This document shows, one piece after another, positions 13,901-46,895 of a DNA stretch of 64,000 nt. The position numbers were made by a program, and so were the translations under genes. A model generated the notes under the pieces. The model did not search any database. It was not told where the DNA came from and was given only the letters and a program-made list of their open reading frames with translations. Position 1 is the stretch's first letter. Each line of letters begins with the position of its first letter. This DNA comes from Photorhabdus khanii NC19 (GTDB lineage: Bacteria > Pseudomonadota > Gammaproteobacteria > Enterobacterales > Enterobacteriaceae), in the NCBI RefSeq assembly GCF_000517265.1, contig NZ_AYSJ01000017.1, positions 166,065 to 230,064 on the forward strand, in the 5' to 3' direction.

Positions 13901-15607
13901 GCAGAAACGCCGGTGCAACGGTTATGTAATCTCTATGGACCTTCCGAAACGACAACCTATTCTGCCTGGATATCGATACCGCGGGGTGACCGGGTAATTG
14001 AAAGTATCGGGCGCCCGATAGCCAACACCGGCCTTTACTTGCTGGACGGGTATGGTCAGCCGGTGCCGCTGGGTGTGGTGGGGGAAATTTATATCGGGGG
14101 CGCGGGAGTGGCGCGTGGCTACCTCAATCGCCCAGACTTGACAGCGGACCGTTTCCTTATCGATCCGTTCAGTGATAATCCGGGTGCCCGTATGTACCGC
14201 ACCGGCGATCTGGCCCGCTACCTGCCGGACGGCAACCTGGCGTTCCTGGGCCGTAATGACCAGCAGGTTAAGATCCGGGGTTTCCGCATTGAACCGGGAG
14301 AAATAGAAGCCCGGCTGGTGGAACACCCGGCGGTGAGTGAGTCGGCGGTATTGGCGCAGGGTGAAGGGCAGGAGAAACGGCTGGTGGCTTATGTGGTGGC
14401 ACCCGCGGATGAGGGGCTGGTCAATAGCCTGCATACTTATCTGAGTGCCATTTTACCGGATTATATGGTGCCGTCGGCCTTTGTGCGGCTGGATGCCTTC
14501 CCGTTAACCCCGAACGGCAAGCTGGATCGTCAGGCGTTGCCGGCAGCGGACAATGAAGCGGTTGTCCGTCAGGTTTACGCCGCGCCGCAGGGCGAAACAG
14601 AAATCGCGCTGGCGGCGATTTGGTGTGAAATCCTGGGGATTGAGCAAATCAGCCGGCATGACAATTTCTTTGCCCTGGGCGGCCATTCGTTGCTGGCGGT
14701 ACGGGTGATGAACCGTGTCGCGGCGTTCGGTGTCGAACTGTCGCTGGCAACCCTGTTTAAATCCCCTACGTTAAGGGCTTTTGCCGAGGTCATGCAGGCC
14801 CGGTCTGGTCAACCGGCCCCTGTTCTGCCGGCCATCATGCCGATATCCCGTGAGGGTGAGTTGCCGCTGTCATTTGCTCAACAGCGCCTGTGGTTCCTGG
14901 CACAGCTTGAGGGGGTCAGCGAGACTTATCATATCCCGATGGCCCTGCGCTTACGTGGTCAGCTGGATATCATGGCCTGGCAAAAGGCGCTGGATACCTT
15001 GTTTGCCCGTCATGAAGCGTTACGCTCTGTCTTTGTCTCTATTGAGGGGCAGCCACAAGTGCAGCTGTTGGCACCGGATAGCGGCTTGCGGCTATCTCAA
15101 CATGACCTGCGTGGGCTCCCGGATGCGGAGAGGGTTCTTGAACGCCTGTGCAGCGAGGAAGCGCGCGCATCATTTAACCTTGAGCGTGGCCCGCTGATCC
15201 GCGCCGGTCTTATCCGGCTCACCGATGATGAATATTGGTTCCTGCTGACGCAGCATCACATTGTTTCCGATGGCTGGTCTGTCGATGTGTTGATACGTGA
15301 ACTGAGCGCACTCTATACGGCGTTTCTGGCCGGGCAACCGGATCCGCTGCCCCCGCTGGCGATTCAATACCCGGATTACGCTGCCTGGCAGCGTCAGTGG
15401 TTGCTGGCGGAACGGACCCAACGGCAATCCGACTATTGGCATGCGATATTGGCTGACGCCCCGGTTCTGCTGGATTTACCTACTGACCGGCCCCGTCCGT
15501 CGGAGCAGTCGTTTACCGGGCATGCCGTGCCGGTTAACCTGGATCCGGCATTAACGACGGCGCTTAAACGGCTGAGTGAGCAAGCACCCGTGTCACGTTA
15601 TTTATGA
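2..15607 (+). CDS. Nonribosomal peptide synthetase, 5' partial, ends at a frameshift
   Basis: Open from the left edge (in frame from base 2; the GTG at 47 is internal, since the preceding codons encode the end of a condensation domain). About 5,201 codons. Domain order: C(end)-A-T, C/E-A-T, C/E-A-T, C-A-T, C/E-A-T, C(start). Each A domain shows the YTSGSTG loop, a YGxTE/YGPTE motif, TGDLARYLP and NGKLDR; each T domain has [11 protein letters not shown] with the phosphopantetheine serine. It builds a peptide in the cytosol by thiotemplate assembly. The reading frame stops at 15605-15607 in the middle of an L,L-type condensation domain because of a net 2-base insertion near 15585-15595 relative to the parallel copy at 9205-9225; the homologous protein continues in another frame. 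Peptide product unknown. The true start and loading module lie outside the window. Confidence 0.95.
1990..5200 (+). other. NRPS module b: dual C/E-A-T, predicted Thr
   Basis: The condensation domain (about 2000-3340) contains [10 protein letters not shown] near 2126-2155, matching the HH[I/L]xxxxGD signature of dual condensation/epimerisation domains, and a second active-site motif HHLIGDH (HHxxxD with H in place of the usual final G). The A domain (about 3390-4930) gives code D F W N I G M V H, threonine. The A core is almost identical in DNA to that of module a. Followed by another dual C/E, so D-Thr is expected. Confidence 0.8.
5230..8425 (+). other. NRPS module c: dual C/E-A-T, predicted basic residue
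   Basis: Dual C/E ([10 protein letters not shown] again), then A (about 6640-8160) with pocket D V E S I G G V T. The acidic residue at position 239 suggests a basic, guanidino-type substrate such as arginine or a relative, but I cannot match this code to one amino acid with certainty. The T domain is of the type that pairs with an L,L condensation domain ([12 protein letters not shown]), and an L,L-type C domain follows, so the residue should stay L. Confidence 0.65.
8455..11615 (+). other. NRPS module d: C(LCL-type)-A-T, predicted basic residue
   Basis: The condensation domain begins with [16 protein letters not shown] and has the intact HHIISDG motif; it lacks the dual C/E signature, so it is called LCL-type. 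The A domain (about 9830-11340) reads D V E S I G A V T, one change from module c, again suggesting a basic, guanidino-like substrate. The following C domain is dual C/E, so a D residue is predicted. Confidence 0.65.
11650..14820 (+). other. NRPS module e: dual C/E-A-T, predicted Ala
   Basis: Dual C/E domain with [10 protein letters not shown]; its second motif is HHLIGDH. The A domain (about 13050-14560) gives D L F N N A L T Y, a known alanine code. The T domain ([12 protein letters not shown]) is followed by an LCL-type C domain, so L-Ala is predicted. Confidence 0.75.
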
Positions 15608-17980
15608 CGCTGTTGTCAGCCTGGGCGGTGGTCCTGTCGCGCCTGTCAGGTCAGGACGATGTGGTGATAGGCACACCGAGTGCAGGCCGCAGTCGTCAGG
15701 AAGTGGAGTCGCTGATCGGGTTCTTTGTCAATACGCTGGCGTTGCGTGTTGATTTATCGGGTGAGCTGACGGTGACGGAGTTGCTGGCGCGTGTGCGGCA
15801 GACCGCTTTAGCGGCACAGGAGCACCAGGATTTACCGTTTGAGCAGGTGGTGGAAATCGTGCAGCCGCCGCGCCGACTGGCGCATACGCCGTTGTTCCAG
15901 GTCATGTTTGCCTGGCAGAACAATGAGAACACGGCCTGGCAATTACCGGGGCTGGCCGTATCACCGGTCGATCAGGTCTCTGATATTGATATTGTCAAAT
16001 TTGATCTTGAACTGAATCTGTCAGAAGAGAAGGGGCGGATTGTCGGTGCGTTGAGTTATGCCACCGCCCTGTTTGATCACTCGACGATAGAGCGGCAGGT
16101 GGGATCGACTCCACGCGGTGCTACAAGAGATGGTCGCTCATGCTCAACAGCGGATCGGGGAAATGGATATCCTGGCTCAGGCGGAGCGCAGGTTGTTATT
16201 GGAAACCTGGAACGCGACAGAAACAGTTTACCCTGACCAGTTATGCATCCATCAGTTGTTTGAACAACAGGTGGAGAAGACTCCAGAGGCGACAGCACTA
16301 ATGACAGGAGATAAAACCCTGAGCTATACGGAATTGAATGCTCGTGCTAACGGGTTGGCTCGTCAGCTGATCGGACAAGGGATTGGTCTTGGTGATCATG
16401 TTGTGATCTTGTTCGAGCGATCGATAGAGCTGGTGGTGGCCCAATTGGCGATTCTCAAAGCGGGTGCCGTTTACGTGCCGATTGATCCCAGTGTGCCGGA
16501 TGAGCGGAAAAACTGGCTGATAAGTGATTGTTCCGCCAGGTTGTTGCTCACCGATACACAGGCTGATATTCCGGCTGACCTGGCTGTTCCGCTGCTTCGT
16601 TTCTCTGATGAGGAGAATACGAGTAGAGAGGAAGAGTGTTTCAACCTTGACTTACCGCGTTTTAGTACCGAATCAGCGTATATCATGTATACCTCCGGCT
16701 CGACTGGAATGCCAAAAGGGGCGGTAGTGTCTCATCGTGCGGTGGTCCGGCTGGTCATCAATAATGGCTATGCTGAAATTGGACCGGATGATCAGGTTGC
16801 CTTTACGGCTAACCCGGCTTTCGATGCCAGCACGTTTGAAGTCTGGGCACCATTGCTCAATGGCGGTGCGCTAGTGGTTATCGACCGCGCTACGTTATTG
16901 ACACCGCCGGAGTTAATACGGGTTTTACAGGCTCACCGCATCACGGTTCTGTGGCTGACTATCGGGTTGTTTAACCGGCTGGCGGTAGAGTTATCCCCAA
17001 TTCTTCCGCAGATTAAGATCCTGATTTTCGGGGGAGATATTCCCGATTTACATGTGATTGCCCAAGTTCTGGATAGTCGCCCGCCACAACAATTATTGCA
17101 GGCTTATGGTCCGAGTGAGGGAACCACCTTTACCACGATATATCCTATCAAGGAGTTAGCGCAGGGAGCGATCCGGGTTCCCATTGGCCGGCCAATCGCT
17201 AATACCCGTGTTTATCTGCTGGATGCGTATGGTCAGCCAGTACCGTTGGGGGTGGTCGGAGAAATTTATGTCGGGGGGGATGGGGTAGCCCTAGGTTATT
17301 TCAATCGTTCTGAGTTAACTGCTGAACGTTTCCTGGTGGATCCGTTTAGTGATAATCCGGATGCACGCATGTACCGTACCGGGGATTTGGCGCGTTATCT
17401 GCCGGACGGCAATCTGGAGTTTCTGGGCCGCAACGATCAACAGGTCAAAATCCGGGGTTTCCGCATTGAACCGGGGGAAATTGAGACGCATCTGGTAGAT
17501 CACCCCGTGGTGCGTGAGGCGGCTGTGTTGGCGTTAGGTGATGGGGCGGATAAACGACTGGTAGCCTATGTGGTGGCACCTGAGGATGACGGGCTGGTGA
17601 ATAGTTTGCGTGTTCACCTGAGTAAAATTTTGCCTGATTATATGGTGCCGTCAGCCTTTGTGCGGCTGGAGGAGTTTCCATTGACCCCGAACGGTAAGCT
17701 GGATCGTCGTGCACTACCGGCCCCGGACAATGAAAACGTGGTCCGTCAGGTTTACCAGGCACCACAAGGAACAATGGAAATGACCTTGGCGGCGATTTGG
17801 CGTGAATTATTGGGGATTGAACAGGTCAGCCGGTATGATAATTTCTTTGCCCTGGGCGGCCATTCACTGCTCGCGGTGAGCATGATTGAACGCCTGCGTC
17901 ACCAGGGGTTGACCCTGACGGCGCGTGATCTGTTCCAGTCTCCAATGCTGTCAGATTTAGCCCAAACATTGGGACAGCAT
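14840..17980 (+). other. NRPS module f: C (frameshifted)-A-T, predicted Val-like
   Basis: LCL-type condensation domain ([23 protein letters not shown]) that is broken by two frameshifts, then A (about 16210-17730) and T. Pocket residues D A F W I G A T F differ at one position from the classic valine code (D A F W I G G T F). Followed by dual C/E, so a D-Val-like residue is predicted if the module works. Confidence 0.65.
15604..16236 (+). pseudogene. Out-of-frame piece of the NRPS condensation domain
   Basis: This reading frame starts at an internal ATG and encodes the C-terminal half of the condensation domain ([19 protein letters not shown] through the [10 protein letters not shown] region), continuing the protein interrupted at 15607. 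After about 16107 it departs from the family because of a further 1-base insertion, and its last ~45 residues are frame-shifted nonsense. The two indels add up to +3, so the upstream and downstream parts are in the same frame. The encoded sequence is well conserved against the parallel module at 9200-9780, so the damage is recent or a sequencing/assembly error. Not an independent gene. Confidence 0.85.
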
Positions 17981-20900
17981 CAGGCTGTAATCGTACCGCC
18001 TAACGTCATTACATCAGCGACGACGACACTCACCCCAGAGATGTTGCCGCTGATCGATCTGACTCAGGCTGACATTGACCGCATCGTCAGACAGGTACCG
18101 GGCGGGGTGACCAATATTCAGGATATCTATGCCTTGTCACCATTGCAGGACGGTATTTTGTTCCACCACTTACTGGCAAACGAAGGGGATCCGTATCTGG
18201 TGGTCAGCCAGATGGCCTTTACTGAACGGACTCTGCTGGACCGTTATCTGGCGGCAGTGCAACAGGTGGTTGATCGTCACGATATTTTGCGTACCGCTTT
18301 TATCTGGCAAGAATTGTCTGTGCCGACTCAGGTCGTCTGGCGTCAGGTGCCTTTATCGGTCATTGAATTGACTCTGGATCCGGCTGATGGGCCGATTTGT
18401 GAACAACTGGCTCAACGTTTTAATCCTAGTTATTATCGTCTTGACCTGAATCAGGCACCATTGCTGCGGTTTGTGGTGGCGCAAGAAGCCGATGGCCGCT
18501 GGATTGTCCTGCAATTGCTGCATCACCTGATTGGTGACCATACTACGCTGGACGTGATGAACCGTGAGGTTCAGGCGTATCTTACCGAACAGGAGGACAG
18601 CCTGCCTTCCCCAGTTTCTTTCCGTAATTTGGTGGCTGAGGCCCGGTTGGGGGTCAGTCAGGAAGAACACACCCGCTTCTTTACCGATATGCTGGCGGCG
18701 GTGGATGAACCTACGCTGCCGTTCGGATTGACGGAGGTGCATAGTGATGGTTCACAGGTGATGGAATCCCACCGGATGTTGGTGCCTGAGCTGAATGATC
18801 GTCTGCGTGGTCAGGCCCGGCGTTTGGGGGTCAGTTTGGCAGCGTTGTGTCATCTGGCCTGGGCCCAAGTATTGTCGCATACCAGCGATCAGGAGAAAGT
18901 GGTGTTTGGCACTGTGCTGTTTGGACGCATGGCGGCGGGAGAAGGGGCTGATAGTGGCATGGGGCTGTTTATCAATACCTTGCCGCTGCGGCTGGATATC
19001 AATGATACCCCGGTACGGGACAGCGTGCAGGCTGCCCATACCCGACTCGCCGGTCTATTGGAACATGAACATGCTTCACTGGCGCTGGCCCAGCGTTGCA
19101 GTAATGTGCAGGGGGAGATCCCCCTCTTTAGCAGCTTGTTGAATTATCGACATAATGCATTGTCAACAATGCTGGATGAACTGATCAGCGGGATTGAATT
19201 CCTTGATGCGCAGGAGCGAACCAATTATCCGTTAGTGTTGTCGGTGGAGGATTGTGGTGAATCCTTGGGATTAACTGCTCAAGTTGTCCAGCCGTTTGAT
19301 GCGGATCGGATATGCGGTTATATGCAACAGGCGCTGGAGAGTTTGGTGGAGGCGCTTGAACAAGCGCCTGAAACGCCGGTACGGCAGTTGGAAACTCTGC
19401 CAGAATCGGAGCGTACATTGTTGTTAAAAACCTGGAACGCGACGGAAACCGCGTATCCTGATGCGTTATGTATCCATCAGTTGTTTGAACAACAAGTGGA
19501 GAAAACCCCGAATGCCACAGCATTAGTGCATGAAGATCAAACCCTCAGTTATGCGGAATTAAATGCCCGTGCTAACCGGTTGGCCCATCAGCTAATTGCG
19601 CTGGGCGTAGAGCCGGATCAGCGAGTGGCGATTTGTGTGTCACGTTCACCGGCAATGGTGGTGGGGATATTGGCAATACTAAAAGCCGGTGGAGCCTATG
19701 TGCCGCTGGATCCGGTTTATACCGGGGAGCGTCTGGCCCATATTCTGACTGATGCCGCTCCGGTTATTTTGCTGGCGGATAAAGCTGGACGTGCTGCGTT
19801 GGGTGAGAAGGCACTGGCAGAATTAACCGTACTTGACCCAAATGCATTGCTCAACCAGCGGGACTACAACCCGCAAATACCTGCACTAACTTCACGACAT
19901 CTGGCGTATGTCATTTATACCTCGGGTTCGACAGGGACACCGAAAGGCGTGATGTTGGAACATCGTGGTGTCTGCAACTACCTGCTATGGGCGCGGAGTG
20001 ATTACCTAACTGAAAAGCAATTCAATAGTATCGTTTCGTCATCGATAGCCTTTGATGCCACGGTCACCAGTCTTTACCTGCCTTTACTGTGTGGTGGCAA
20101 GATCCATTTGCTCCGTGACGGGCAGGAGCTGGTTGAATTGCTTCCCGCATTGTTGTCAATGGAATCGGGTGCTTTGGTTAAAATTACTCCTGGTCATCTT
20201 TCGGCAATGGGGCAGAAATTGAAAACCGTGGGACGAAAATGCCCCTCTCACTGCTTTATTGTGGGTGGAGAGACACTGCCCAGTTCCACTATTGCACTTT
20301 GGCAAACATTATCGCCTGGATCACGCATCATCAACGAGTACGGCCCAACCGAAACCGTCGTGGGTTGTACCGTGTTTGATATCAACCATCCGAGCTGTTT
20401 TGCCGATAACGTACCGATTGGCCGCCCAATATCCAATACCCAAATTTATATTCTCAATACCCACGGGGAACCTGTCCCAATGGGTGTCACTGGTGAACTT
20501 TACATTGGTGGAATCGCTGTCGCCCGTGGCTACCTGAATCGGCCAGAATTGACAGCTGAACGTTTCCTGATTGATCCGTTTAGTGATCAACCGGGTGCTC
20601 GTATGTACCGTACCGGGGATTTAGCTCGCTACCTGCCGGATGGTAACTTGGAATTCCTGGGCCGCAACGACCAGCAGGTTAAAGTCCGCGGTTTCCGCAT
20701 TGAACCGGGGGAAATTGAAGCCCGGCTGATAGAGCACCCGGCGGTACGTGAATCAGTGGTGTTCGCGTTGGGAGAAGCGCAGGATAAGCGTCTGGTCGCT
20801 TATGTTGTGGTGCAAGCGGATGAGGGGCTGGCGAATAGCCTGCGTACCCACTTGAGTGCAACTTTACCTGACTATATGGTACCAACGGCCTTTGTGCGGC

Positions 20901-21175
20901 TGGATGCACTTCCGTTGACCCCGAACGGTAAGCTGGATCGTCGAATGCTGCCGGCGCTGGATAATGAAGCGTTTGCCTGTCAGGTTTATGAAGCGCCACA
21001 AGGGGAAACGGAAATTGCACTGGCAACTATTTGGCGTGAATTGCTGGGGGTTGAGCAGGTCAGCCGGCATGACAACTTCTTCGCGCTGGGGGGCCACTCA
21101 CTGCTCGCCATGCGAATGACCAATTATCCGGTCAGGTTATCCGATTTATGCGCTGCCCTGGCCGTCCATCAGTGA
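16118..21175 (+). CDS. NRPS continuation: A-T, dual C/E-A-T (truncated)
   Basis: In the same frame as the first NRPS part; the ATG at 16118 is internal to the C-A linker, so this is a continuation of one polypeptide and not a separate gene, unless the frameshifts are real. Contains A6 (Val-like), T6 ([14 protein letters not shown]), dual C/E ([10 protein letters not shown]) and A7. T7 keeps [12 protein letters not shown] and then departs from the family within about two codons, ending after 18 unrelated residues. Compared with the other carrier domains about 30 residues of T7 are missing, as is the start of the thioesterase, so the junction at about 21117-21130 is a deletion plus frame change. 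Confidence 0.85.
18005..21120 (+). other. NRPS module g: dual C/E-A-T(truncated), predicted Asn
   Basis: Dual C/E domain, then A7 (about 19440-20960) with pocket D A T K I G E V G (VKITP supplies the K, NEYGPTE the E), an asparagine-type code. It is the last module, since a thioesterase remnant follows. The carrier domain is cut shortly after its GGHS serine motif. Confidence 0.7.
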
Positions 21176-21182
21176 AGAACCG

Positions 21183-21875
21183 ATGTCGACGGTGGAAGAG
21201 CAGGCGGTCAGAATGATCAGCTTGATGAAAGCGGTTCAACCGACAGGCCCGTACCGGATAAGTGGTTACTCTTCCGGCGGTATATTGGCTTATGCTGTTG
21301 CCCGGCAGCTTTTGCATGCCGGTGAGACGGTGAACTTCCTGGGGCTGATTGATACGCCGGCTCCTCATTATTTCGGGGAGCAATCCGCACAACCTAAACA
21401 TCTGTTCCTGGCTGAGTTGGCACGACAGTCAGGGGAGGAGTGCACAGAAGAGGTTGCGGAGTTGTACCGGCGAATTGATGAGTTGAATTTGGTGCAGTTT
21501 ATTGCAGCGGCACAGGAATTGGCGCTATACCCTGCCAGTCTGCGGCCTGATTTAATCGCAAAACGTTGGGAGCAGATAGAGCGTTATACGCAAATAGTCA
21601 GAGAGTATGAACCGCAAGCATTAGCGTTAACGCTGCATCAGTTTTATGCGAGAGAGCCTTCTCCTTCTGTGTCTTTTGTCACGGATGAAAAGCCAGAGTC
21701 GTTAGATATAGAACCGTCATTAGGCTGGGCGCAGGTCATGCCTGACTCTTCACTTCAGTTGATGGCTATTTCAGGTAATCATTTCAGTTTGTTGGAGGAT
21801 AAGGAGCATAGAATGGCTTTAGCTCAGGCTCTGAATAAGGCATTGGCAATACATTGTGATCGGGGGACGTTGTAA
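21183..21875 (+). CDS. NRPS thioesterase domain, N-terminally truncated
   Basis: Type I thioesterase domain that would release the finished peptide by hydrolysis or cyclisation. It shows the nucleophile elbow GYSSG (Ser at residue ~30), the acid in GLIDTPAP and the catalytic His in GNHFSLLE, so the triad is complete. The frame is open further upstream to about 21123 (reading [10 protein letters not shown] before the ATG), which is thioesterase sequence too; the ATG at 21183 is therefore internal. About 50 N-terminal residues of a normal thioesterase domain, including the HP-G-G oxyanion strand, are missing, together with the end of the preceding carrier domain. As written it is a broken fusion; an assembly collapse is an alternative. 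Confidence 0.85.
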   Translation: MSTVEEQAVRMISLMKAVQPTGPYRISGYSSGGILAYAVARQLLHAGETVNFLGLIDTPAPHYFGEQSAQPKHLFLAELARQSGEECTEEVAELYRRIDELNLVQFIAAAQELALYPASLRPDLIAKRWEQIERYTQIVREYEPQALALTLHQFYAREPSPSVSFVTDEKPESLDIEPSLGWAQVMPDSSLQLMAISGNHFSLLEDKEHRMALAQALNKALAIHCDRGTL

Positions 21876-22914: not shown

Positions 22915-22970
22915 ATGACTAAAGCTGCGCTGCAACAGTCGAGGCAGTGCAGCCACCCAGGAGAGATAAA

Positions 22971-24611
22971 GTGGCAAATCATCCGCGCGCGGGGCAGCTT
23001 GCCCGCCAAAGTGATCTGATAAATGTAGCGCAACTGACTTCACAGTATTACACCCTACATCCTCAGCCGGAAAACCCAGTGCATAAGGTTAAATTCGGTA
23101 CATCCGGCCATCGTGGCAGCTCTCAGCGCAGTAGTTTTAATGAAGCGCATATTCTGGCAATTGCTCAGGCAGTTGTGGAAGCCCGTAAGCAGCGGGGAAT
23201 AAATGGCCCTTGTTATGTGGGTAAAGATACTCATGCGTTGTCAGAAGCTGCTTTTATTTCTGTGTTGGAAGTGTTGACCGCCAATAATGTGCATGTGATT
23301 GTGCAGGAAAATAATGGATTTACGCCAACACCGGCGATTTCTCATGCCATCCTCTGTTATAACCGTCAGGGGAAGGCGCTGGCGGATGGGATCGTGATTA
23401 CACCATCCCATAATCCGCCGGAAGATGGCGGCATTAAATATAATCCACCTGATGGCGGCCCCGCCGATACGGATCTGACCACGATTATCGAACGTCGTGC
23501 TAACGAGTTGCTTGAAGAAGGCCTGAAAAGCGTTAAGAGTCTGCCATTTGCTCAGGCATTGAGCAGTGAATATCTGCACCAGCAAGATTTAGTCGAGCCA
23601 TATGTCGCTGCGCTGGGTGATGTGGTTGATATGGCTGCTATCCAGAAGGCAGGTTTGAAAATCGGTATTGATCCGTTGGGTGGCTCCGGCATTGCGTTTT
23701 GGCAGCGTATCGGTGAGTACTACAACCTGAATCTGACGTTAGTTAATGATCAGGTCGATCAGACGTTCCGTTTTATGCATCTGGATCATGATGGTGTCAT
23801 TCGCATGGATTGCTCATCTCCTTGGGCAATGGCAGGTTTGCTGGCAATGCGAGATAAGTTTGATCTGGCTTTTGCCAACGATCCTGATTATGACCGCCAC
23901 GGTATTGTCACACCAGCCGGTTTGATGAATCCAAACCACTATCTGGCAACCGCGATAGATTATTTGTTCCGTCATCGTCCACAATGGTCGGAAAGCGTTG
24001 CGGTAGGTAAAACGCTGGTTTCCAGTGCCATGATTGATCGGGTCGTTGCCGATCTTGGCCGTGAATTGGTGGAAGTGCCGGTCGGTTTTAAGTGGTTTGT
24101 TGATGGTTTGCATCAGGGCAAATTGGGCTTTGGCGGAGAGGAGAGTGCAGGGGCTTCTTTCCTGCGTTTCGATGGTATGCCGTGGTCCACGGATAAAGAT
24201 GGGATTATCCTCTGTTTGCTGGCAGCAGAAATAACCGCCGTGACAGGGGAAAATCCACAGCAGCGTTACGATAAGTTAGCCGCCCGTTTTGGTACACCGA
24301 GTTACAGCCGCATTCAGGCACCCGCAAGCCATCAGCAGAAGGCGTTGTTAGCCAAGTTGTCACCAGAAATGGTGACAGCAGATAAGCTTGCCGGTGATCC
24401 CATCACTGCCCGGTTGACGAAAGCCGCCGGTAACGGCGCATCCATCGGCGGCCTGAAAGTGATGACAGAAAATGGTTGGTTTGCCGCCCGTCCATCAGGA
24501 ACAGAGGAAGCCTATAAGATTTACTGTGAAAGTTTCCTTGGCCCTGAACATCGGGAGAAGATTGAACGCGAAGCACAGGATATTGTTAACCAGGTTTTTG
24601 CCGCCGTTTGA
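22971..24611 (+). CDS. pgm: Phosphoglucomutase (alpha-D-glucose 1,6-bisphosphate-dependent)
   Basis: Interconverts glucose 1-phosphate and glucose 6-phosphate in the cytosol, feeding UDP-glucose and glycogen metabolism. A GTG start at 22971 with AGGAGAG ten bases upstream gives 546 residues, exactly the E. coli length, and begins VANHPRAGQ like E. coli MAIHNRAGQ; an ATG further upstream at 22947 would add eight residues without family match. Visible motifs: substrate loop KFGTSGHRG, the active-site phosphoserine loop [12 protein letters not shown], the metal-binding DPDYDRHG, sugar loop GGEESAG and the phosphate-binding RPSGTE near the end. Probably cotranscribed with seqA. Confidence 0.97.
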
Positions 24612-24629: not shown

Positions 24630-24666
24630 AATCCGCAATAGCTGTCACAGGTTATTGCGGATTTTT
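24630..24666 (+). terminator. Rho-independent terminator after pgm
   Basis: 11-bp perfect stem AATCCGCAATA (24630-24640) with TATTGCGGATT (24653-24663) followed by a T run. Confidence 0.9.
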
Positions 24667-25345: not shown

Positions 25346-26578
25346 ATGAAAAATTTTTCTCTTAGTAGTTATACATCCATACCGGCATGTATATGGGGTT
25401 TATTTTTGGGGACTTTCGTAACAAGATCAACATCAATGATGGTATGGCCTTTTATATCTATTATCTTGTATACCAAGTTCCATTTTACTGCATCGATGAT
25501 TGGATTAGTTCTCTCTTTATCCATTGCGATTTCATCAATATTAAGTTTTTATGCAGGTTACTTCTCTGATAAAGTTGGCCGAGCCAGGATAATTATCATT
25601 GGATGTCTTATATCTTCATTGGCATATTTGATATTATGGTTATCTGAGCATCAGTCTGGTTTTATTATCGGTACGTTATTAGCGAATATCTCCTGGGCGC
25701 TGGTTAATAACCCAATAAAAGCAGTTATCGGTGATATTATCGAAGAAAAGCAGGTAAGAGAGAATGCCATGTATTTAAGGTATTTATTTCTGAATGCGGG
25801 TGCTGTAGTCGGGCCTTATTTAGGGGTAAAGTTAAGCCTGGATATTAATTCTATCTCATTTTTGATTGTTTCGGTATCCTATGTGATTTTTATGATCCCG
25901 GTCTATTTATTTGGTAAGAAAATAAAAATAAACTTAACTAATGATGATGATTTTAAAGGCACGATAAAGATTTTATTGAATGATCGGGTGTTTTTAATGT
26001 TGGTCATCAATAATATTCTCATGATGTTTATTTTTGGTCATTTTGATTCAACTCTGCCGCAGTTGATTACTTCATTAGGGTTTAATGGATATGCTGAGTT
26101 TATCGCTTCGCTTATTATGCTGCATGCGCTAACTATTGTAGTTATGCAGTTACCGTTTTCCATGTTAACGCAACAAATGGCATTAGAAACGAAAATAAAA
26201 ATAGGCACTGTATTACTCATTTTAGCTGAATTAATGTTCTTTATTTCATTTAAGTATTATGATGTTTATTTATTTTGGTATCTGGCTGCTTTTATCATGA
26301 GTATCAGTCAAACTATTTTGTTTCCATGTGTGAATGTTTTTATCGATCGTTTAGCGCCAAATGATTTACGTGGTGCATATTTTGGCGCAGCATCACTTTA
26401 TAGTATCGGTTTTTGTATCTCTCCATTAGTGGGTGGTACTGTTATTCAGTTCTTTAATGGTGGCGTGTTATTTCAATTATTAGCGATATTAAGTGTGTTG
26501 GTGTTGGTAATTTTTTGCCGTATGTTTAAACTAAGGGATAAACATGAAATTAATATTAGAAGAAGTCTCGAATCTTAG
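25346..26578 (+). CDS. MFS transporter, probable product exporter
   Basis: 410 residues, inner membrane, with about 11-12 hydrophobic segments and the MFS motif A between TM2 and TM3 (GYFSDKVGRARIIIIG, residues ~72-87). Overall resembles drug/H+ antiporters of the MdtH type more than sugar transporters; it does not resemble the fosmidomycin exporter Fsr by eye. It is the first gene of a tightly packed cluster and overlaps the next gene by 35 bases, so translation is coupled. The natural reading is export of, and self-protection against, the small molecule made by the downstream enzymes. Substrate is inference. Confidence 0.85.
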   Translation: MKNFSLSSYTSIPACIWGLFLGTFVTRSTSMMVWPFISIILYTKFHFTASMIGLVLSLSIAISSILSFYAGYFSDKVGRARIIIIGCLISSLAYLILWLSEHQSGFIIGTLLANISWALVNNPIKAVIGDIIEEKQVRENAMYLRYLFLNAGAVVGPYLGVKLSLDINSISFLIVSVSYVIFMIPVYLFGKKIKINLTNDDDFKGTIKILLNDRVFLMLVINNILMMFIFGHFDSTLPQLITSLGFNGYAEFIASLIMLHALTIVVMQLPFSMLTQQMALETKIKIGTVLLILAELMFFISFKYYDVYLFWYLAAFIMSISQTILFPCVNVFIDRLAPNDLRGAYFGAASLYSIGFCISPLVGGTVIQFFNGGVLFQLLAILSVLVLVIFCRMFKLRDKHEINIRRSLES

Positions 26579-26939
26579 ACCAACTGAATTACATTGTCCT
26601 GCTCGTGTTGAGCAGTTAATAGAGAAAGTTAAACTTGAAGGTTTTTGGACTCAACCTATCTGGATTGATGAAGCAACGAATGTGGTGATTGATGGTCATC
26701 ATAGACTCGAATTAGCCAAAACACTCAAGCTAAGTTGTATTCCTTGTCTGGCATTTGATTATCAGAAAGAGTTGTTGGTTTATTCACGTAATGAGAATAA
26801 AACAATTAGTCATGTTGATGTTATTAATGCGGGTCTGGATGGGAAACCATTGGGTTATAAACAGACTCGTCATGAGTTTGCCGGGAATGTTATTGAAACG
26901 CAAATTGCGTTAAAAATGTTAGGGTTTGTCAATGAATAA
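26544..26939 (+). CDS. ParB/Srx-fold protein, SerK/SbnI-like free amino-acid kinase
   Basis: 131 residues. The sequence VVIDGHHRLELAK (D50-G-H-H-R54) is the phosphate-handling motif of the ParB-like superfamily, in the DGHHR form found in the free serine kinases SerK (archaeal, ADP-dependent) and SbnI (staphyloferrin B locus), both of which make O-phospho-L-serine. The protein has no helix-turn-helix or partition partner, so a plasmid-segregation role is unlikely. In this cluster, O-phosphoserine would be the natural substrate for the cytidylyltransferase-PLP fusion two genes downstream. Kinase activity and the serine substrate are inferred from family and context. Overlaps the upstream gene by 35 bases and the downstream gene by 8. 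Confidence 0.75.
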   Translation: MKLILEEVSNLRPTELHCPARVEQLIEKVKLEGFWTQPIWIDEATNVVIDGHHRLELAKTLKLSCIPCLAFDYQKELLVYSRNENKTISHVDVINAGLDGKPLGYKQTRHEFAGNVIETQIALKMLGFVNE

Positions 26940-28128
26940 GCAGTTTTATGATGTTGTGATGTGTGGTGCAGGTCCTGCAAATATCTCTTTAATTCCAGAT
27001 TTATTAAAAGATGAAGCTATAAAACATTGTCTGATTTTAGAAAAAACAGAGATGGTCGGTTCTGGTGCATTAAAGAAGTATAAAATTACTGCGAACTCTT
27101 TAGGTAGTGTATTTTTAGAGAAATTTGGCGGCGGTGATGATGAGTTGAGTCAATATATAAGATCAACCTCAGAGTGGGAATATTTTAGTGCCAATAAAGA
27201 TAAACCGGTTGAATTGAGAGTTGTCGGTCAATATTTGGAGAGAATTGCACGCTTTATTCAGGAAAATAAATATGGTGATCGGTTTGGTGTATTGACCGGT
27301 GCGGAAGTAAAAAAGATTAAGCAGAATGAAAATGGCGACTATGATATAACTTATCATAAAGATAATGAAGACTATATTGTATCAACGCGAAAAGTCCTGT
27401 TTAATATAGGTGGAAACCCGAACGAATCCAGATTATTACATAATAGTCATAATATGACTTCAGGTGATTTTATTAAAGGTGTTTATGATGAGATCATCAA
27501 TAAAGGTGATATAAAAAGTATATCAATATTAGGTTCGTCACACAGTTCTGTTTCCTGTTTGATTCGGCTGATAGAACAATTAAAGTTTACTGGTAAGATA
27601 AATGTTCTGGTTAATAAAGATTTCAAGCTGTTTTTTGATTCACCTGCCAGTGCAGAATCTTACGGCTATGATTTCGTCCAGGAAGATATCTGCCCTTTAA
27701 GTGGCCGGGTTAATCGATATTCAGGTCTGAGATATGACTCTTTTGTATTTGCACAAGAGCTTAAAGTAAGAAAACATAAAAATATTTCTATTTTAAATAT
27801 CTCAGAAATATCGAGTGATGAGGTTATTCAACGTATTAATTGTGACGATTTATTAATTCATTGTACTGGGTATCACTCCAAACTTGTTGAAATCGTTGAT
27901 AAAAATAATATTCATGTTAAATTTAAAAGTGATAAATATGGTTTGCTGACTAATGCAAAATTAAATCCTATATCAATGTCGGGTGAAACGCTCAATAATT
28001 TTCATACATTTGGTCTGGGATCTGGTGTAAAAACCGGTGGTGAAATTGGTGGCGAGGCAAGTTTCCACGGACGAATTGACGGGGTTTGGGTATATCAGCA
28101 TGTGATATATGACGCTGTATTTAATTGA
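26932..28128 (+). CDS. Flavin-dependent N-monooxygenase (ornithine/lysine N-hydroxylase type)
   Basis: 398 residues from the ATG at 26932 (a TTG two codons earlier is possible). FAD-binding motif GAGPANISL near the N-terminus, an internal dinucleotide-binding motif ILGSSHSSVS (~residue 200), and the late LLIHCTGYHS motif typical of class B flavin N-hydroxylating monooxygenases. Such enzymes convert a primary amine to a hydroxylamine using NADPH and O2. FrbG of the FR-900098 pathway is of this class and acts on a CMP-linked aminoalkyl phosphonate; here the neighbouring cytidylyltransferase suggests an analogous CMP-linked amine as substrate. Cytosolic. Specific substrate is inference. Confidence 0.8.
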   Translation: MNKQFYDVVMCGAGPANISLIPDLLKDEAIKHCLILEKTEMVGSGALKKYKITANSLGSVFLEKFGGGDDELSQYIRSTSEWEYFSANKDKPVELRVVGQYLERIARFIQENKYGDRFGVLTGAEVKKIKQNENGDYDITYHKDNEDYIVSTRKVLFNIGGNPNESRLLHNSHNMTSGDFIKGVYDEIINKGDIKSISILGSSHSSVSCLIRLIEQLKFTGKINVLVNKDFKLFFDSPASAESYGYDFVQEDICPLSGRVNRYSGLRYDSFVFAQELKVRKHKNISILNISEISSDEVIQRINCDDLLIHCTGYHSKLVEIVDKNNIHVKFKSDKYGLLTNAKLNPISMSGETLNNFHTFGLGSGVKTGGEIGGEASFHGRIDGVWVYQHVIYDAVFN

Positions 28129-28239
28129 TAGATAGCTCAATATCAATTTTACATTATTAACGAGCTGTATTTTAGGTTAATTCTTATTTAAGAATTCCGA
28201 TAGCTTTCTAACATCTATTTAAAATAAATTATCAAAACT

Positions 28240-30096
28240 ATGAATGAAAAAACAGTAATACTGCTTTGTGCAGGAAGAGGCAGCCGTTTATCTACCAGAA
28301 CATCAAATAAACCAAAACCTTTGGTAGAAACCAATCAAACATCATTTATCGATAATGCGCTGAAAAATATCGAATCTGTCGGTATTAGGAAAGTGATTAT
28401 TGTGGTGGGTTATAAAAGTTATGTTTTAATGTCTCATATTAAACAAAAGACATATAACCTGGATATTGAATTTGTTAATAGTGAAAAATGGGAATCGACC
28501 AACAATCTCTATTCTTTATATCTTGCCAGAAATTGGATTAAGCAAGATACGCTGATCCTTGAAGGTGATATATTCTTCACCAAGAAATGTCTGGAAACGG
28601 TGATGTTAAAAGCAGGCGATCTGAATGTCCTGGTTTCTCCTCTTAGTGGGAATATGGAAGGGACTTATGCAAAAATAGATAAAGATAATATTATTGCATT
28701 AAATTCCACCAAGGATAGTGATTATCAGGTTGAAGATGGGCAATATAAGACAGTAAATATTTATCATATTTGCAGCGCTAATTTTGCGGAATATGTGAAT
28801 AAAGAGTTAGAAAATTACGTTAATAATGGGTTAACCGGGCTATATTATGAAGATATATTTAAAAAATCTTTATTGGATAATATAGCTGAATTTAAAGCAA
28901 GTATTGTTGATCATTCTCAATGGTATGAAGTCGATAATACTTATGATCTTGCTATTTGTGATTTCATTTCAAGTAATAATAAGCTGGATCTTGTGCAGAA
29001 TAGGCATGGTGGATATTGGCGTTATCCTATTATTGATTTTGCATTAATTTATAATTTCAACTTTCCACCTAAAAAATTGAAAGATGAAATGAAGAATAAT
29101 TTTGATGAGATATTACTCAATTATCCTGGTGGAAATCGTTTAGTTGAATACGCCTTATCTGAATTTCTTGGCGTAGAAAAAACGAAATTATGTATTTCAA
29201 ATGGTGCTGCTGAAATAATAAAACGGCTACCTGAAATTTATACAGGTAAAGTATTAGTCACTGTGCCATCATTTAATGAGTATGCTAATTGTTTTGGTAA
29301 AGACAGAACAATATTTAGCTATAGCAAAGAGAGCAGAGATTTTGAGATAGATATTGATGAATTATTAACGTTGGCGAAAGAAGAAAAGCCAAGTGTGGTG
29401 GTGATTGAGTCACCAAATAACCCGACAGGTAAACTGACGCCAATTAATAGTTTGTTATATTTGGCTGGCGAGTTATTGACATTAAATATAGACCTGATTG
29501 TTGATGAATCTTTCTTAGATTTCTCTAAAATGCGTGACGATACAATGTTAATGCATTTAGATAACTATAAAAATTTATCTGTTATTCGCAGTATGAGTAA
29601 AACCTTTGGTATTGGTGGTATTCGGATAGGATATATTGCAACCGCGAATCAAGCATTACTCGGTAAAGTGAGGTCAGTATTGCCTATTTGGAATATTAAT
29701 GGTTTTGCTGAAGAATTTTTATTGCGGTTGCCGCAATATAGAGAGAGCTATAAATTAAGCTGTGAACAGGTGATTATTGATACGTTAAAATTACAGCAAG
29801 AATTGAATTCAATTGAAGGTATTACTGCCTATGAAACGGATTCTAATTTTGTTTACTGTAAATTCCATGTTTCCGATGCAAAAACGGTATCACAGTTACT
29901 TTTAGAGATTCATGGCGTGTATATAAAAGAGTGTTCCGGGAAAGGCAATGCCGATTCTGATCTATATTGCCGGGTATCTTGCCGGACACAAAGCGATAAT
30001 GAAATTTTAATCCGCTCATTACGCATGGTAATGCAGGGGCTGATTAATATTAGTGATATTAGTACGATTAAGGAAGTTAACGAGGTCTGCGAATGA
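28240..30096 (+). CDS. Bifunctional cytidylyltransferase - PLP-dependent decarboxylase/aminotransferase (FrbH/PntC-like)
   Basis: 618 residues. Residues ~1-240 are a nucleotidyltransferase: CAGRGSRLSTRTSNKPKPLV signature, NNLYSLYLAR and WYEVDNTYD resemble the phosphocholine cytidylyltransferase LicC. Residues ~255-610 are a fold-type I PLP enzyme of the HisC/CobD group: SNGAAE, ESPNNPTG, VDESFLDF, and the PLP lysine K454 in SMSKTFGIGG. The same fusion is known in FrbH (FR-900098; attaches CMP and decarboxylates) and PntC (CMP-aminoethylphosphonate). With a serine kinase next door, a likely reaction is O-phosphoserine to CDP-ethanolamine by cytidylyl transfer and decarboxylation. No phosphoenolpyruvate mutase is in the window, so a phosphate rather than a phosphonate substrate is favoured. 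ATGA overlap with the next gene. Confidence 0.85.
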   Translation: MNEKTVILLCAGRGSRLSTRTSNKPKPLVETNQTSFIDNALKNIESVGIRKVIIVVGYKSYVLMSHIKQKTYNLDIEFVNSEKWESTNNLYSLYLARNWIKQDTLILEGDIFFTKKCLETVMLKAGDLNVLVSPLSGNMEGTYAKIDKDNIIALNSTKDSDYQVEDGQYKTVNIYHICSANFAEYVNKELENYVNNGLTGLYYEDIFKKSLLDNIAEFKASIVDHSQWYEVDNTYDLAICDFISSNNKLDLVQNRHGGYWRYPIIDFALIYNFNFPPKKLKDEMKNNFDEILLNYPGGNRLVEYALSEFLGVEKTKLCISNGAAEIIKRLPEIYTGKVLVTVPSFNEYANCFGKDRTIFSYSKESRDFEIDIDELLTLAKEEKPSVVVIESPNNPTGKLTPINSLLYLAGELLTLNIDLIVDESFLDFSKMRDDTMLMHLDNYKNLSVIRSMSKTFGIGGIRIGYIATANQALLGKVRSVLPIWNINGFAEEFLLRLPQYRESYKLSCEQVIIDTLKLQQELNSIEGITAYETDSNFVYCKFHVSDAKTVSQLLLEIHGVYIKECSGKGNADSDLYCRVSCRTQSDNEILIRSLRMVMQGLINISDISTIKEVNEVCE

Positions 30097-30767
30097 GTCA
30101 TCCAAAAACAGTCGTGATTTGTGGTAAAGGAGAATTGGCAATTTTCATTTGTCAGTATTTCTTGAATCATAAAGATTATCAAATATTGCATGTTGTGGCA
30201 GATAAATTCGAACCTGTCAGTACTGAGCAGACATTAATAGATTTTTGTCATGAAAACAATATTTCTATTATTGAAGATAATAAAGTTGAGAATTTACCCG
30301 GTTATGAAAGTGGTAATTTCAATTGCGATTTGTGCTTTGTCGTATTTCATAAGCGGATATTGCCGTTAAAATTCATTAATTCTTGTAAAAGAATATTGAA
30401 TATCCATTTGTCCCATTTGCCTAAATATCGCGGCGTCAGGCCAGTAAATTGGGCTTTGAAAAATGGTGAGTCATCTCATGGTGTGACGATCCATGAAATT
30501 AATGAAGGTATTGATGCGGGTCCAATTGTGAATCAGGTTTCATTTTCTATTTATCCAGAATTTGAAGAAGTTATTGATACTTATACCCGGGCTGTTAGCT
30601 ATGCCAGACAATTATTCCTTGATACCATGCCAATGGTGGAAAAAATAACGCCAAGACCGCAAATGGATTCAGAGGCTAGTATTTATTATGAGAAAGATAA
30701 TCATAATCTGGCAGAAAGGATGACATTTACCAAGAAAGCATCGCTTGAATTGCTGAATAAAGCGTAG
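30093..30767 (+). CDS. Formyltetrahydrofolate-dependent formyltransferase
   Basis: 224 residues of the formyl_transf_N family. The catalytic triad Asn103-His105-Asp141 is in place (NIHLSHLPKYRG and GIDAGPIV), aligning with N106/H108/D144 of methionyl-tRNA formyltransferase, but the tRNA-binding C-terminal domain is absent, so the substrate should be a small amine. Expected donor is N10-formyl-tetrahydrofolate. Starts inside the stop of the upstream gene (ATGA), hence translationally coupled. In this context it would N-formylate the hydroxylamine made by the flavin enzyme, giving the N-formyl-N-hydroxy group that chelates the metal of DXP reductoisomerase in fosmidomycin-like inhibitors. Product is inference; family is solid. 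Confidence 0.85.
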   Translation: MSHPKTVVICGKGELAIFICQYFLNHKDYQILHVVADKFEPVSTEQTLIDFCHENNISIIEDNKVENLPGYESGNFNCDLCFVVFHKRILPLKFINSCKRILNIHLSHLPKYRGVRPVNWALKNGESSHGVTIHEINEGIDAGPIVNQVSFSIYPEFEEVIDTYTRAVSYARQLFLDTMPMVEKITPRPQMDSEASIYYEKDNHNLAERMTFTKKASLELLNKA

Positions 30768-30800
30768 ATAATAATTGCTTTTAATGTACCGGGGAAGTTC

Positions 30801-31622
30801 ATGTATAATCTTATTGCTACAGATCTTGATGGAACTCTGTTACTTCAAGGGGATACGGTAGGTAAATTTACCCGCCAAGTGTTGACTGATTTGTCAAATA
30901 CGGGAAAACAGATCGTATTTGCCACTGGTAGACATCATGCTGATGTTAACGCCATTATTGGTGATTTTGATATACCTGTACATCTGATTACGTCTAATGG
31001 TGCCAGATTGACAAGTGCCTGTAAAAAGTTGGATATCAGACAATATCTGCCGGGTGATGTAGTAAAAAGATTAATTGAGGAAACGCAGGCAGATCACGAT
31101 TTAGTGATTAATATGTATTGTGGTTCCCAATGGTTAACCAGTGAATTACACCATAGTTTCAGTGATTTTAATCAGAATGATAATTTTAATCCAACGATCA
31201 GACCGGCTGATGAAATGCCTTGTGATGCTGTTGAAAAAATCTTTTTCATTCATAAGCGCAGAGATCACGACGTGTTGGTTAAATTGGAACGCCATTTAAT
31301 TGAGCTGTTTTCTGATAGTGTCAGTGTCGCTTTCTCGTTTCCTTGGTGTCTGGAAGTGATGGACTGTGGGGTTTCTAAGGGACAGGCGTTAATTCAGTTA
31401 GCTGGGTTTCTTGGGGTTCCAATCAATCAAACTATTGCATTTGGCGATGGTATGAATGATGTGGAAATGCTTTCAACCGCCGCTAAAGGGGTCATCATGG
31501 GAACGGCACAGGATAGGGTTAAACAAGCGCTGCCTCATGCGGATGTTATTGGTTCTTGTTGTGAAGAGTCTGTCGCTCATTATTTATCTGAACATGTCTA
31601 TCAGGTGAATAATCTGTCCTAA
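30801..31622 (+). CDS. Cof-like HAD-superfamily phosphatase
   Basis: 273 residues, HAD subclass IIB. Motif 1 DLDGT (Asp8 nucleophile, Asp10), motif 2 TSNGAR region, motif 3 lysine in VSKGQAL and motif 4 GDGMNDVEML. Overall it is close to E. coli Cof (272 residues), sharing KIFF/KICF, CLEV and the ending VIGSC..SVSHYL-like segment. Cof hydrolyses small phosphates such as HMP-PP. It lies 33 bases after the formyltransferase on the same strand, so it may belong to the cluster (trimming a phosphorylated product or protecting the host) or may be a housekeeping gene brought along; I cannot decide. Confidence 0.85.
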   Translation: MYNLIATDLDGTLLLQGDTVGKFTRQVLTDLSNTGKQIVFATGRHHADVNAIIGDFDIPVHLITSNGARLTSACKKLDIRQYLPGDVVKRLIEETQADHDLVINMYCGSQWLTSELHHSFSDFNQNDNFNPTIRPADEMPCDAVEKIFFIHKRRDHDVLVKLERHLIELFSDSVSVAFSFPWCLEVMDCGVSKGQALIQLAGFLGVPINQTIAFGDGMNDVEMLSTAAKGVIMGTAQDRVKQALPHADVIGSCCEESVAHYLSEHVYQVNNLS

Positions 31623-41814: not shown

Positions 41815-41964
41815 TTATCTCGGCTGCTGAAGAAGTTTGATAGTGCAACTATCTTGTTGTTAGCGAATGAATATTAATTAACAACAAGCTGCAACAATCA
41901 TTCCCTACATTGCTTAATGTTTTCAGTTTGCAAAGATAGGCACGGACGCAATTATGGAAAAAAA

Positions 41965-44100: not shown

Positions 44101-44224
44101 AAGGCTTCCATTTCCCGGAAAAGTACGATGAAAACGGCTAATAACGTAATCAATGGTTAATAACACAGTCAGAGGTAGATGTGACCAAGATAAATATACT
44201 CCGATTCAAGGAAAATAACTTCGC

Positions 44225-45640: not shown

Positions 45641-45739
45641 GCGCGCTTTGCCATACTCACCGTTTTCCGCCTTTGAGATAAGTTACCGTTAATAGTCAGG
45701 GATGTTTTTTCGCAGTCTTACTTTGTTTGGAGTGACGTG

Positions 45740-46267
45740 ATGAAGAGATTACAGGTACATGAAATAGTTAAAAGCTGGCACAAAATGATTATTGTTTTGA
45801 GTTGTGCTTGGTTGGTGGCCTGTTCTGAACGCGTTGATATCTGCAAACCGATTGATGTGTCGCATTCTGGGCAATCCGTCGAGATTAATTTTGAACTCAG
45901 TAAGCGCAAGGCCGGGGATTATCAGTTTGCCCTGCTGTTTGCGAAGGGGCGTTCTTATGCTGAAATGGAAAGGCGATTTGAGTTATTCGGGAGTATTGAT
46001 AAGGACGGGGTTACAACCCCCGTTTCGCTTCGTCTGGTTAAAGACGGCAAGGTTTTTTTTGACGAGAAAATAAACGCAGTGGGGCGCGGTTGGGGGCAAT
46101 CCTTCTATTATAAAGAGAGAAGTATAAATACCGCGGTACGCAATATTAAAATACTGGAGTTACTCCCCGGACGTTATTCTGCGGTAATTACTACACTGGA
46201 AGATGTGCCTGCTTTTAATGGTATTCAGAGTTTTGTAGAGCTTGCGTATTTTAATTCGAAGATTTAA
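45740..46267 (+). CDS. DUF5625-like lipoprotein, putative immunity protein (copy 1)
   Basis: 175 residues from ATG at 45740 with GGAG seven bases upstream (GTG at 45737 is the alternative). The signal segment MIIVLSCAWLVAC gives a lipobox Cys, so a periplasm-facing lipoprotein. The body matches the DUF5625 pattern: PIDVSHSGQSVEINFEL, a YQFALLF strand, VSLRLVKDGK, LPGRYSAVITTLEDVPAFNG. This family is often found beside antibacterial toxins as immunity protein (family knowledge, not proven here). It sits between the secretion genes and the toxin gene, and is visibly more A+T-rich than both the transporter genes before it and most of the toxin gene after it. Confidence 0.8.
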   Translation: MKRLQVHEIVKSWHKMIIVLSCAWLVACSERVDICKPIDVSHSGQSVEINFELSKRKAGDYQFALLFAKGRSYAEMERRFELFGSIDKDGVTTPVSLRLVKDGKVFFDEKINAVGRGWGQSFYYKERSINTAVRNIKILELLPGRYSAVITTLEDVPAFNGIQSFVELAYFNSKI

Positions 46268-46325
46268 GAAGATTTAAAATAGTATCAGTATAAACAAAGA
46301 AAATATAAAAATTTGGAGTGACGTG

Positions 46326-46847: not shown

Positions 46848-46895
46848 TTTCTATAGAAAAACAAAAAGAAATAACAAATAGAGGAAATAACAAGT

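Follow-up and report, generated by a model that had tools for sequence, protein, structure and literature searches.

A six-gene cluster of Photorhabdus khanii NC19 that probably makes fosfoxacin, a phosphate congener of fosmidomycin

Six compact genes at 25346-31622 of the window, a 64,000-nucleotide stretch of the 5.2 Mb genome of Photorhabdus khanii NC19 (contig NZ_AYSJ01000017.1, positions 166,065 to 230,064 of the forward strand), probably make fosfoxacin, 2-(N-formyl-N-hydroxyamino)ethyl phosphate, via the conjugate fosfocytocin, which we take to be its cytidine monophosphate (CMP) ester. They encode, in order, an MFS transporter, a SerK-like protein, a flavin monooxygenase, a fusion of a cytidylyltransferase with a pyridoxal phosphate (PLP) enzyme, a formyltransferase and a HAD phosphatase, and would very likely specify a hydroxamate pathway of the type known from the frb genes for FR-900098, without a carbon-phosphorus (C-P) bond. 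Homologues for activation, decarboxylation, N-hydroxylation and N-formylation, recognized by homology only, are all in the cluster, and the cassette was also found in 4 of 398 sampled genomes of Pseudomonas, the genus of the published fosfoxacin producer, a match at the level of the genus. The N-formyl-N-hydroxyaminoethyl phosphate named as the product by the original prediction, which was made from the DNA letters of the window, proved to be fosfoxacin itself, going by the accessible text of PMC9782300 and PMC9919496. The features of the locus, in window coordinates, are as follows:

24630..24663, + strand: terminator-like hairpin after pgm, a possible upstream boundary (14-pair stem, then a T-rich tail; a consensus match only)
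25346..26578, + strand: MFS transporter of 410 aa, probable exporter (PF07690 (MFS_1), 6.5e-40)
26544..26939, + strand: half-length ParB-fold SerK-like protein of 131 aa, candidate L-serine kinase (SerK model and motifs)
26932 (ATG) or 26926 (TTG)..28128, + strand: FrbG-like flavin N-monooxygenase (27% identity to the Streptomyces rubellomurinus protein)
28240..30096, + strand: FrbH-like fusion of 618 aa, LicC-type cytidylyltransferase plus CobD/HisC-type PLP enzyme (Pfam, NCBIfam and PDB matches)
30093..30767, + strand: small N-formyltransferase of 224 aa (PF00551, 2.1e-23)
30801..31622, + strand: HAD-IIB phosphatase of the Cof type, which may act in maturation or self-protection (TIGR00099)

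The analogy with FrbH and FrbG that had been drawn for two of these proteins reflects real homology, since the fusion and the monooxygenase share 33% and 27% identity, respectively, with the products of neighbouring S. rubellomurinus genes, to which we assign the frb letters. The fusion combines an NTP_transferase domain (2.2e-11) with an Aminotran_1_2 domain (7.8e-30), and its PDB matches were CobD/HisC-type chains and LicC, in agreement with the identity first proposed for it; the best NCBIfam match was CobD (4.7e-48, below the CobD cut-off). Alignment with its S. rubellomurinus counterpart (32.6% identity across 586 aa) showed that K26 of a PK motif, the EGD and WYEVD motifs, the PLP lysine K454 and a C-terminal arginine are common to both; a wrong-frame row of a Saccharothrix fusion was excluded from this motif alignment, and the right frame was used in the trees described below. 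According to the accessible part of PMC6697681, a K38A replacement abolished the cytidylyltransferase activity of FrbH, and the equivalent lysine, residue 37 of the Streptomyces open reading frame (ORF) as counted here, is kept in the window fusion. The PLP half of the fusion is probably a decarboxylase. The PntC-AEPT fusion (PDB 6PD1) likewise joins a LicC-like cytidylyltransferase to a PLP enzyme, but there the PLP portion is designated a class V aminotransferase, and the window protein matches the nucleotidyl half only. The monooxygenase is, by its sequence and by its place beside an FrbH-like gene, a predicted FrbG-like flavin N-hydroxylase. It is 26.6% identical over 417 aa to the S. rubellomurinus protein at the FrbG position (locus L029), its match to Lys_Orn_oxgnase (PF13434; 3.2e-4, 20.4 bits) lies just below the gathering cut-off of 21.3, and a profile search of the PDB gave KtzI, presumably an ornithine N-hydroxylase, as the best match (1.3e-5), with thioredoxin reductases close behind. 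A single-sequence search of the PDB returned 0 matches for this protein and 0 for its S. rubellomurinus counterpart; a crystal structure of FrbG is said to exist in the accessible part of PMC7347517. The formyltransferase matches Formyl_trans_N (PF00551) and has the intact N/H/D triad that had been read in it, as N103, H105 and D141, residues that are retained in the Photobacterium row and in three Pseudomonas rows of the alignment. The MFS protein has YdeE as its best NCBIfam match (7.1e-29, below the YdeE cut-off); its gene opens the cassette in Photorhabdus, Photobacterium and Pseudomonas, and it is a probable exporter.

At the S. rubellomurinus locus the order of genes is PEP (phosphoenolpyruvate) mutase, Iso_dh-type dehydrogenase, Antibiotic_NAT acetyltransferase, monooxygenase, fusion, NUDIX, TauD-type oxygenase and 1-deoxy-D-xylulose 5-phosphate reductoisomerase (DXR), with an MFS gene further on. 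Both clusters have an FrbG-like gene directly 5' of an FrbH-like fusion, an acyltransferase within the cluster and an MFS gene nearby. The frb locus, however, has its own PEP mutase with other C-P genes, an AAC(3)-type acetyltransferase, a NUDIX hydrolase and a second DXR, whereas the window has the formyltransferase, the SerK-like protein and the HAD phosphatase instead, and in its genome one DXR and no PEP mutase that passes the cut-off were found; a domain scan of the window locus found neither an AAC(3)-type acetyltransferase nor a NUDIX hydrolase there. FrbI we take to be the Nudix enzyme that releases FR-900098 from CMP. In the pathway that we propose, primary metabolism would supply O-phosphoserine, to which the SerK-like protein perhaps adds a further share; this compound would be joined to CMP by the cytidylyltransferase at the N-terminus of the fusion, and the PLP half would decarboxylate the CMP-linked phosphoserine to cytidine diphosphate (CDP)-ethanolamine. 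The FrbG-like enzyme would N-hydroxylate this CMP-linked amine and the formyltransferase would N-formylate the hydroxylamine, an order of the two steps that could be reversed. The roles of FrbH and FrbG in the FR-900098 pathway are given in the accessible portions of PMC6697681 and PMC7347517 and in the legend of Figure 5 of PMC13302981; because PMC7347517, a review, places FrbG on the N-acetyl compound in a figure legend but names a CMP conjugate in its text, we leave the order of hydroxylation and acylation undecided. The MFS protein would export the product, the HAD phosphatase would either free fosfoxacin from CMP, in an FrbI-like role, or protect the producer by cutting stray product, and the target would be DXR (IspC) in the methylerythritol phosphate (MEP) pathway of competitors. 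The earlier view that every step is covered by one gene with none left over does not hold, as the kinase homologue is of half length and not obligatory and the HAD gene follows the cassette in Photorhabdus and Pseudomonas.

Fosfoxacin, fosfocytocin and fosfadecin are natural products that have been known since 1990, fosfoxacin as an inhibitor of DXR. The accessible text of PMC9782300 and PMC9919496 presents fosfoxacin as a phosphate congener of fosmidomycin that occurs naturally and was obtained from P. fluorescens, gives it a Ki of 19 nM on the Synechocystis DXR, names DXR as the target of both compounds, and calls the acetyl form a fosfoxacin analogue; fosfoxacin is hence the N-formyl compound, the very N-formyl hydroxamate phosphate that the gene set predicts. 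Our literature searches found no biosynthetic cluster for fosfoxacin, fosfocytocin or fosfadecin, with the limit that subscription journals lay mostly outside their coverage and an unseen report is possible. Since no published fosfoxacin-type cluster was found, we infer the link from cluster to compound. The terms 'fosm', 'fosf', 'cytidyl' and 'formyltransferase' gave no hits in the accessible main text of two cluster surveys (PMC10676414, PMC9491552); each of them has a single mention of phosphonate-type clusters in that text, and PMC9491552 names three Photorhabdus genomes as carriers of phosphonate, nucleoside or tRNA-derived clusters.

The distribution of the cassette was assessed by a scan of the genome collection that used an alignment of the monooxygenase and two peptide patterns only, so that relatives without these patterns are missed, and by searches of genome samples. 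The scan yielded 16 loci, eight from Photorhabdus, one from Photobacterium galatheae, two from Pseudomonas and five from actinobacteria including S. rubellomurinus ATCC 31215, and the fusion gene adjoins the monooxygenase gene in all 16 (two loci begin at a contig end and one fusion is split). With the threshold for the monooxygenase set at E 1e-8, matches were obtained in 9 of 12 Photorhabdus genomes examined, in a single one of 369 sampled genomes of the class, namely the window's own, and in 42 of 398 sampled Pseudomonas genomes; four of the latter are close (at least 60% to the P. piscis protein) and have the genes for MFS, monooxygenase, fusion, formyltransferase and HAD in that order. 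The fusion at E<=1e-40 was found in 2 of 198 sampled genomes of the family, both of them Photorhabdus. Nine Photorhabdus genomes, the Photobacterium and the four Pseudomonas make up a formyl-type set of 14, one of which (G571) was read for the MFS, SerK-like and monooxygenase genes and part of the fusion. In midpoint-rooted trees of the monooxygenase and of the fusion, from which two loci at contig ends (L030, L031), the split fusion (L016) and near-identical loci (L018-L021 and L023) were excluded, the formyl-type proteins formed one clade with Priestia adjoining and the actinobacteria apart, a topology that carries a long-branch-join warning.

The Priestia proteins come from plasmid pBM700 of Priestia megaterium (L010:4510-12635), whose monooxygenase and fusion are 38% and 44% identical to the window proteins and lie in a run of monooxygenase, AAC(3) acetyltransferase, fusion, CDP-alcohol phosphatidyltransferase and DXR. 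This plasmid resembles the window in its homologous monooxygenase and fusion and in having no PEP mutase, but differs in its AAC(3)-type acetyltransferase, two ATP-grasp proteins, CDP-alcohol phosphatidyltransferase and DXR; a search of plasmids with the formyltransferase found none at 1e-40. The product of the pBM700 cluster is perhaps an acetyl-fosfoxacin-type compound that is further conjugated, and the linked DXR gene, the strongest outside support available, supports DXR as the target. Related genes were also seen in other settings. Plasmids of Rahnella and Erwinia (L011:7719-18626, L012:7719-18711) carry a monooxygenase and a fusion with a CDP-alcohol phosphatidyltransferase, MaoC/SDR genes, an ATP-grasp gene and an MFS gene, and encode a large protein in which an AAC(3)-type domain is combined with a HAD-type region; these loci perhaps specify a different product on the same CMP-hydroxamate core. 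An AAC(3)-HAD protein of similar type follows the fusion in Streptomyces sp. MspMP-M5 (L028), and in Fusobacterium vincentii (L013:5219-7827) a formyltransferase-domain protein lies directly 5' of a similar fusion, and the locus gave no match to the monooxygenase.

Several observations weigh against fosfoxacin as the product or DXR as its target. Fosfoxacin is about 8-fold less potent than fosmidomycin on the E. coli DXR, as given in the accessible text of PMC9919496. DXR is present once in the window's genome and once in each of the other 13 formyl-type genomes, compared with two copies in S. rubellomurinus; target duplication therefore gives no support for this target in the formyl-type genomes, and self-protection must rest elsewhere there, on export, the HAD phosphatase or poor uptake. 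FrbG-like proteins also occur apart from the fusion: of the 42 Pseudomonas matches, 38 are distant, and five of these regions, on inspection, showed no fusion, so that the monooxygenase alone is not diagnostic. The SerK-like protein reaches 30.4 bits (2e-7) against the SerK model, whose cut-off is 380, over positions 17-92 of 244 only, and two Pseudomonas carriers of the cassette gave no match to it anywhere in their genomes. Finally, 3 of the 14 formyl-type genomes have a PEP mutase that passes the cut-off, encoded about 0.5 Mb away from the monooxygenase gene or on a different contig.

The last of these points bears on a reading to which we give very little credence, namely that the cassette finishes a phosphonate whose C-P precursor (e.g., 2-amino-4-phosphonobutyrate) is made elsewhere in the genome, which would lead to fosmidomycin or a close relative. 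The monooxygenase and the fusion are indeed homologues of frb proteins, and the frb substrate is a phosphonate (PMC13302981, Figure 5 legend). However, the window's genome has one protein of the PEP mutase superfamily, at 119.8 bits against the cut-off of 319.55, and none over it; none over the cut-off was found in 11 of the 14 formyl-type genomes either, the three that have one have it away from the cassette, and a serine-kinase-like gene is embedded in the cluster. The S. rubellomurinus PEP mutase, used as a control, scores 306 and is itself slightly below this cut-off. As the window's genome holds no PEP mutase that passes the cut-off, a phosphate product is the better fit, and a phosphonate cluster as first choice was set aside on this result together with that for the 11 genomes. 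The three matches over the cut-off, all in Photorhabdus (G573:C71:89861-90715, G566:C173:4094-4903 and, in two pieces, G571:C1:2210269-2210988), hint at unrelated phosphonate clusters. We consider it highly unlikely that the product is not an antibiotic and that the CMP-linked hydroxamate is instead a signal or a donor that decorates a surface polymer or lipid. Similar fusions adjoin CDP-alcohol phosphatidyltransferases in Rahnella, Erwinia and Agrobacterium, as well as in Priestia, and the Fusobacterium fusion with its preceding formyltransferase-domain protein lies amid apparent surface-sugar genes (read without a domain scan); yet no CDP-alcohol phosphatidyltransferase is among the six window genes, the first of which encodes an MFS transporter, and the related Priestia cluster holds a DXR gene.

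A different backbone, which would arise if the PLP half took O-phosphothreonine or another phospho-amino acid, as CobD does, and which would give a methylated or otherwise altered relative of fosfoxacin, is also unlikely. The NCBIfam model that fits the PLP half best is CobD, the PDB matches are headed by a threonine phosphate decarboxylase-like chain, and serine is only a candidate substrate of the SerK-like protein. On the other side, established chemistry makes O-phosphoserine an isostere of the substrate of FrbH, the ParB-fold relatives that turned up are serine kinases, and fosfoxacin is already a known Pseudomonas product. The ParB/SerK-like kinase of the original prediction is itself retained in part. 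Its E15 aligns with the catalytic E30 of SerK, the residue that is replaced in the SerK variants 5x0e and 5x0j, the DGHHR motif is also kept, and E15 and D50-R54 are invariant in 10 of 10 rows (nine from Photorhabdus). The free serine kinases SerK and SbnI, which share the catalytic glutamate and DGHHR with it, are 242-256 aa long, unlike the 131-aa window protein. The domain scan gave no Pfam match for the latter; the SerK model matches 10 of 10 relatives, with 2e-7 as the best value and all far under the curated cut-offs. A profile search of the PDB gave seven matches at E<=1, all weak (E 0.011-0.17), six of them named SerK or SbnI, with an unnamed 242-aa homologue on top. By length and distance the protein is not close enough to be named SerK, and because it has half the length of SerK and no match in two Pseudomonas carriers, a dedicated kinase is not obligatory; O-phosphoserine supplied by primary metabolism would suffice either way. 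The accessible part of PMC12704722 reports CTP binding for a SerK-like ParB-fold protein.

Taken more widely, our preferred fosfoxacin pathway would make this the first cluster for a phosphate, C-P-free branch of the fosmidomycin type, in which serine phosphate enters the FrbH/FrbG machinery, the gamma-proteobacteria use a formyl form, the Bacillota an acetyl form with a DXR of its own, and the HAD phosphatase of Photorhabdus and Pseudomonas serves release or self-protection and was kept by cassette-free Photorhabdus after the loss of the biosynthetic genes; for this wider picture as a whole we see the chances as evenly balanced. If the fosfoxacin reading is true, a fosmidomycin mimic is made from serine without a C-P bond, directly testable producers are at hand together with a gene signature overlooked by genome mining based on PEP mutase, and Photorhabdus, the partner of a nematode in insect cadavers, is suggested to be armed against MEP-dependent competitors.

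The original prediction had ended the cluster at 30767, and its five genes belong to it, but the HAD gene at 30801-31622 also seems to be a member. The HAD protein scores 152.2 bits against TIGR00099, over the cut-off of 137, and its gene lies beside the cassette not only in the window but also at all 8 named Photorhabdus loci and in 4 of 4 close Pseudomonas carriers, where the protein is 49-54% identical; at the single Photobacterium locus no match was found. At E<=1e-60 it occurs in 5 of 392 sampled genomes of the family, all Photorhabdus, and on this distribution and its place beside the Pseudomonas cassette a mere native neighbour was ruled out. Counting against this rejection, an open HAD frame of 272-276 aa is kept just after pgm in all three Photorhabdus genomes without the monooxygenase, which means that it is not strictly tied to biosynthesis. 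We infer a cluster member that was kept after loss of the cassette, which would suit a protective role. In each of these three genomes the end of the formyltransferase (window 30521-30622) leaves short matches, a 49-aa piece in one (E 1.6e-7) and 32-33 bp in the other two (E 1e-5 to 3e-6), and these small remnants favour deletion of an ancestral cassette.

All five ORFs of the original prediction were read at their positions. Their description as packed is right for the two overlaps (35 bp between the MFS and SerK-like ORFs, and 8 bp between the SerK-like and flavoprotein ORFs with the ATG start) and for the ATGA junction of fusion and formyltransferase, which was read in the sequence, but not for the gap of 111 bp between flavoprotein and fusion; the formyltransferase and HAD genes are 33 bp apart. 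The order MFS, SerK-like, monooxygenase, fusion and formyltransferase is identical in 8 of 8 named Photorhabdus loci and in Photobacterium, one of the fusions being split by an insertion, and spacing and order together suggest that the six genes form one operon. Their dN/dS values are 0.07-0.12 in comparison with one relative, P. luminescens (pgm, 0.05), and chance ORFs are ruled out by these values and by the conservation across loci. The cluster is a low-GC island (about 33%) flanked by pgm (22947-24611) and, on the opposite strand, by a kdp-like set, with 33-36% GC in the five core genes, 40% in the HAD gene and about 50% in pgm and kdpD. Terminator-like sites in the region number 4, compared with 3.2 in shuffles, i.e., they are not in excess. 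The closest named relatives by the monooxygenase are P. thracensis (94% identity) and P. tasmaniensis (92%). In P. thracensis an insertion of about 1.1 kb, which carries a minus-strand ORF for a DDE_3-domain transposase (12650-13717), interrupts the fusion gene (L016:11305-14260), and the cassette there is therefore probably inactive.

Elsewhere in the window, at 16118-21875, the last ORF of a non-ribosomal peptide synthetase ends at 21175 and is followed at 21183, in a different frame, by a thioesterase domain, so that a frameshift in the gene or in the assembly is possible; a condensation domain is present as a separate ORF at 15604-16236. At 41917-53216 a secretion-like pair, a C39 peptidase ABC transporter and HlyD, lies 5' of a 2106-aa protein with RTX, subtilase and P-domains, and a 215-aa ORF at 55499-56146 has only the POTRA domains of a ShlB-type protein and is perhaps a remnant.

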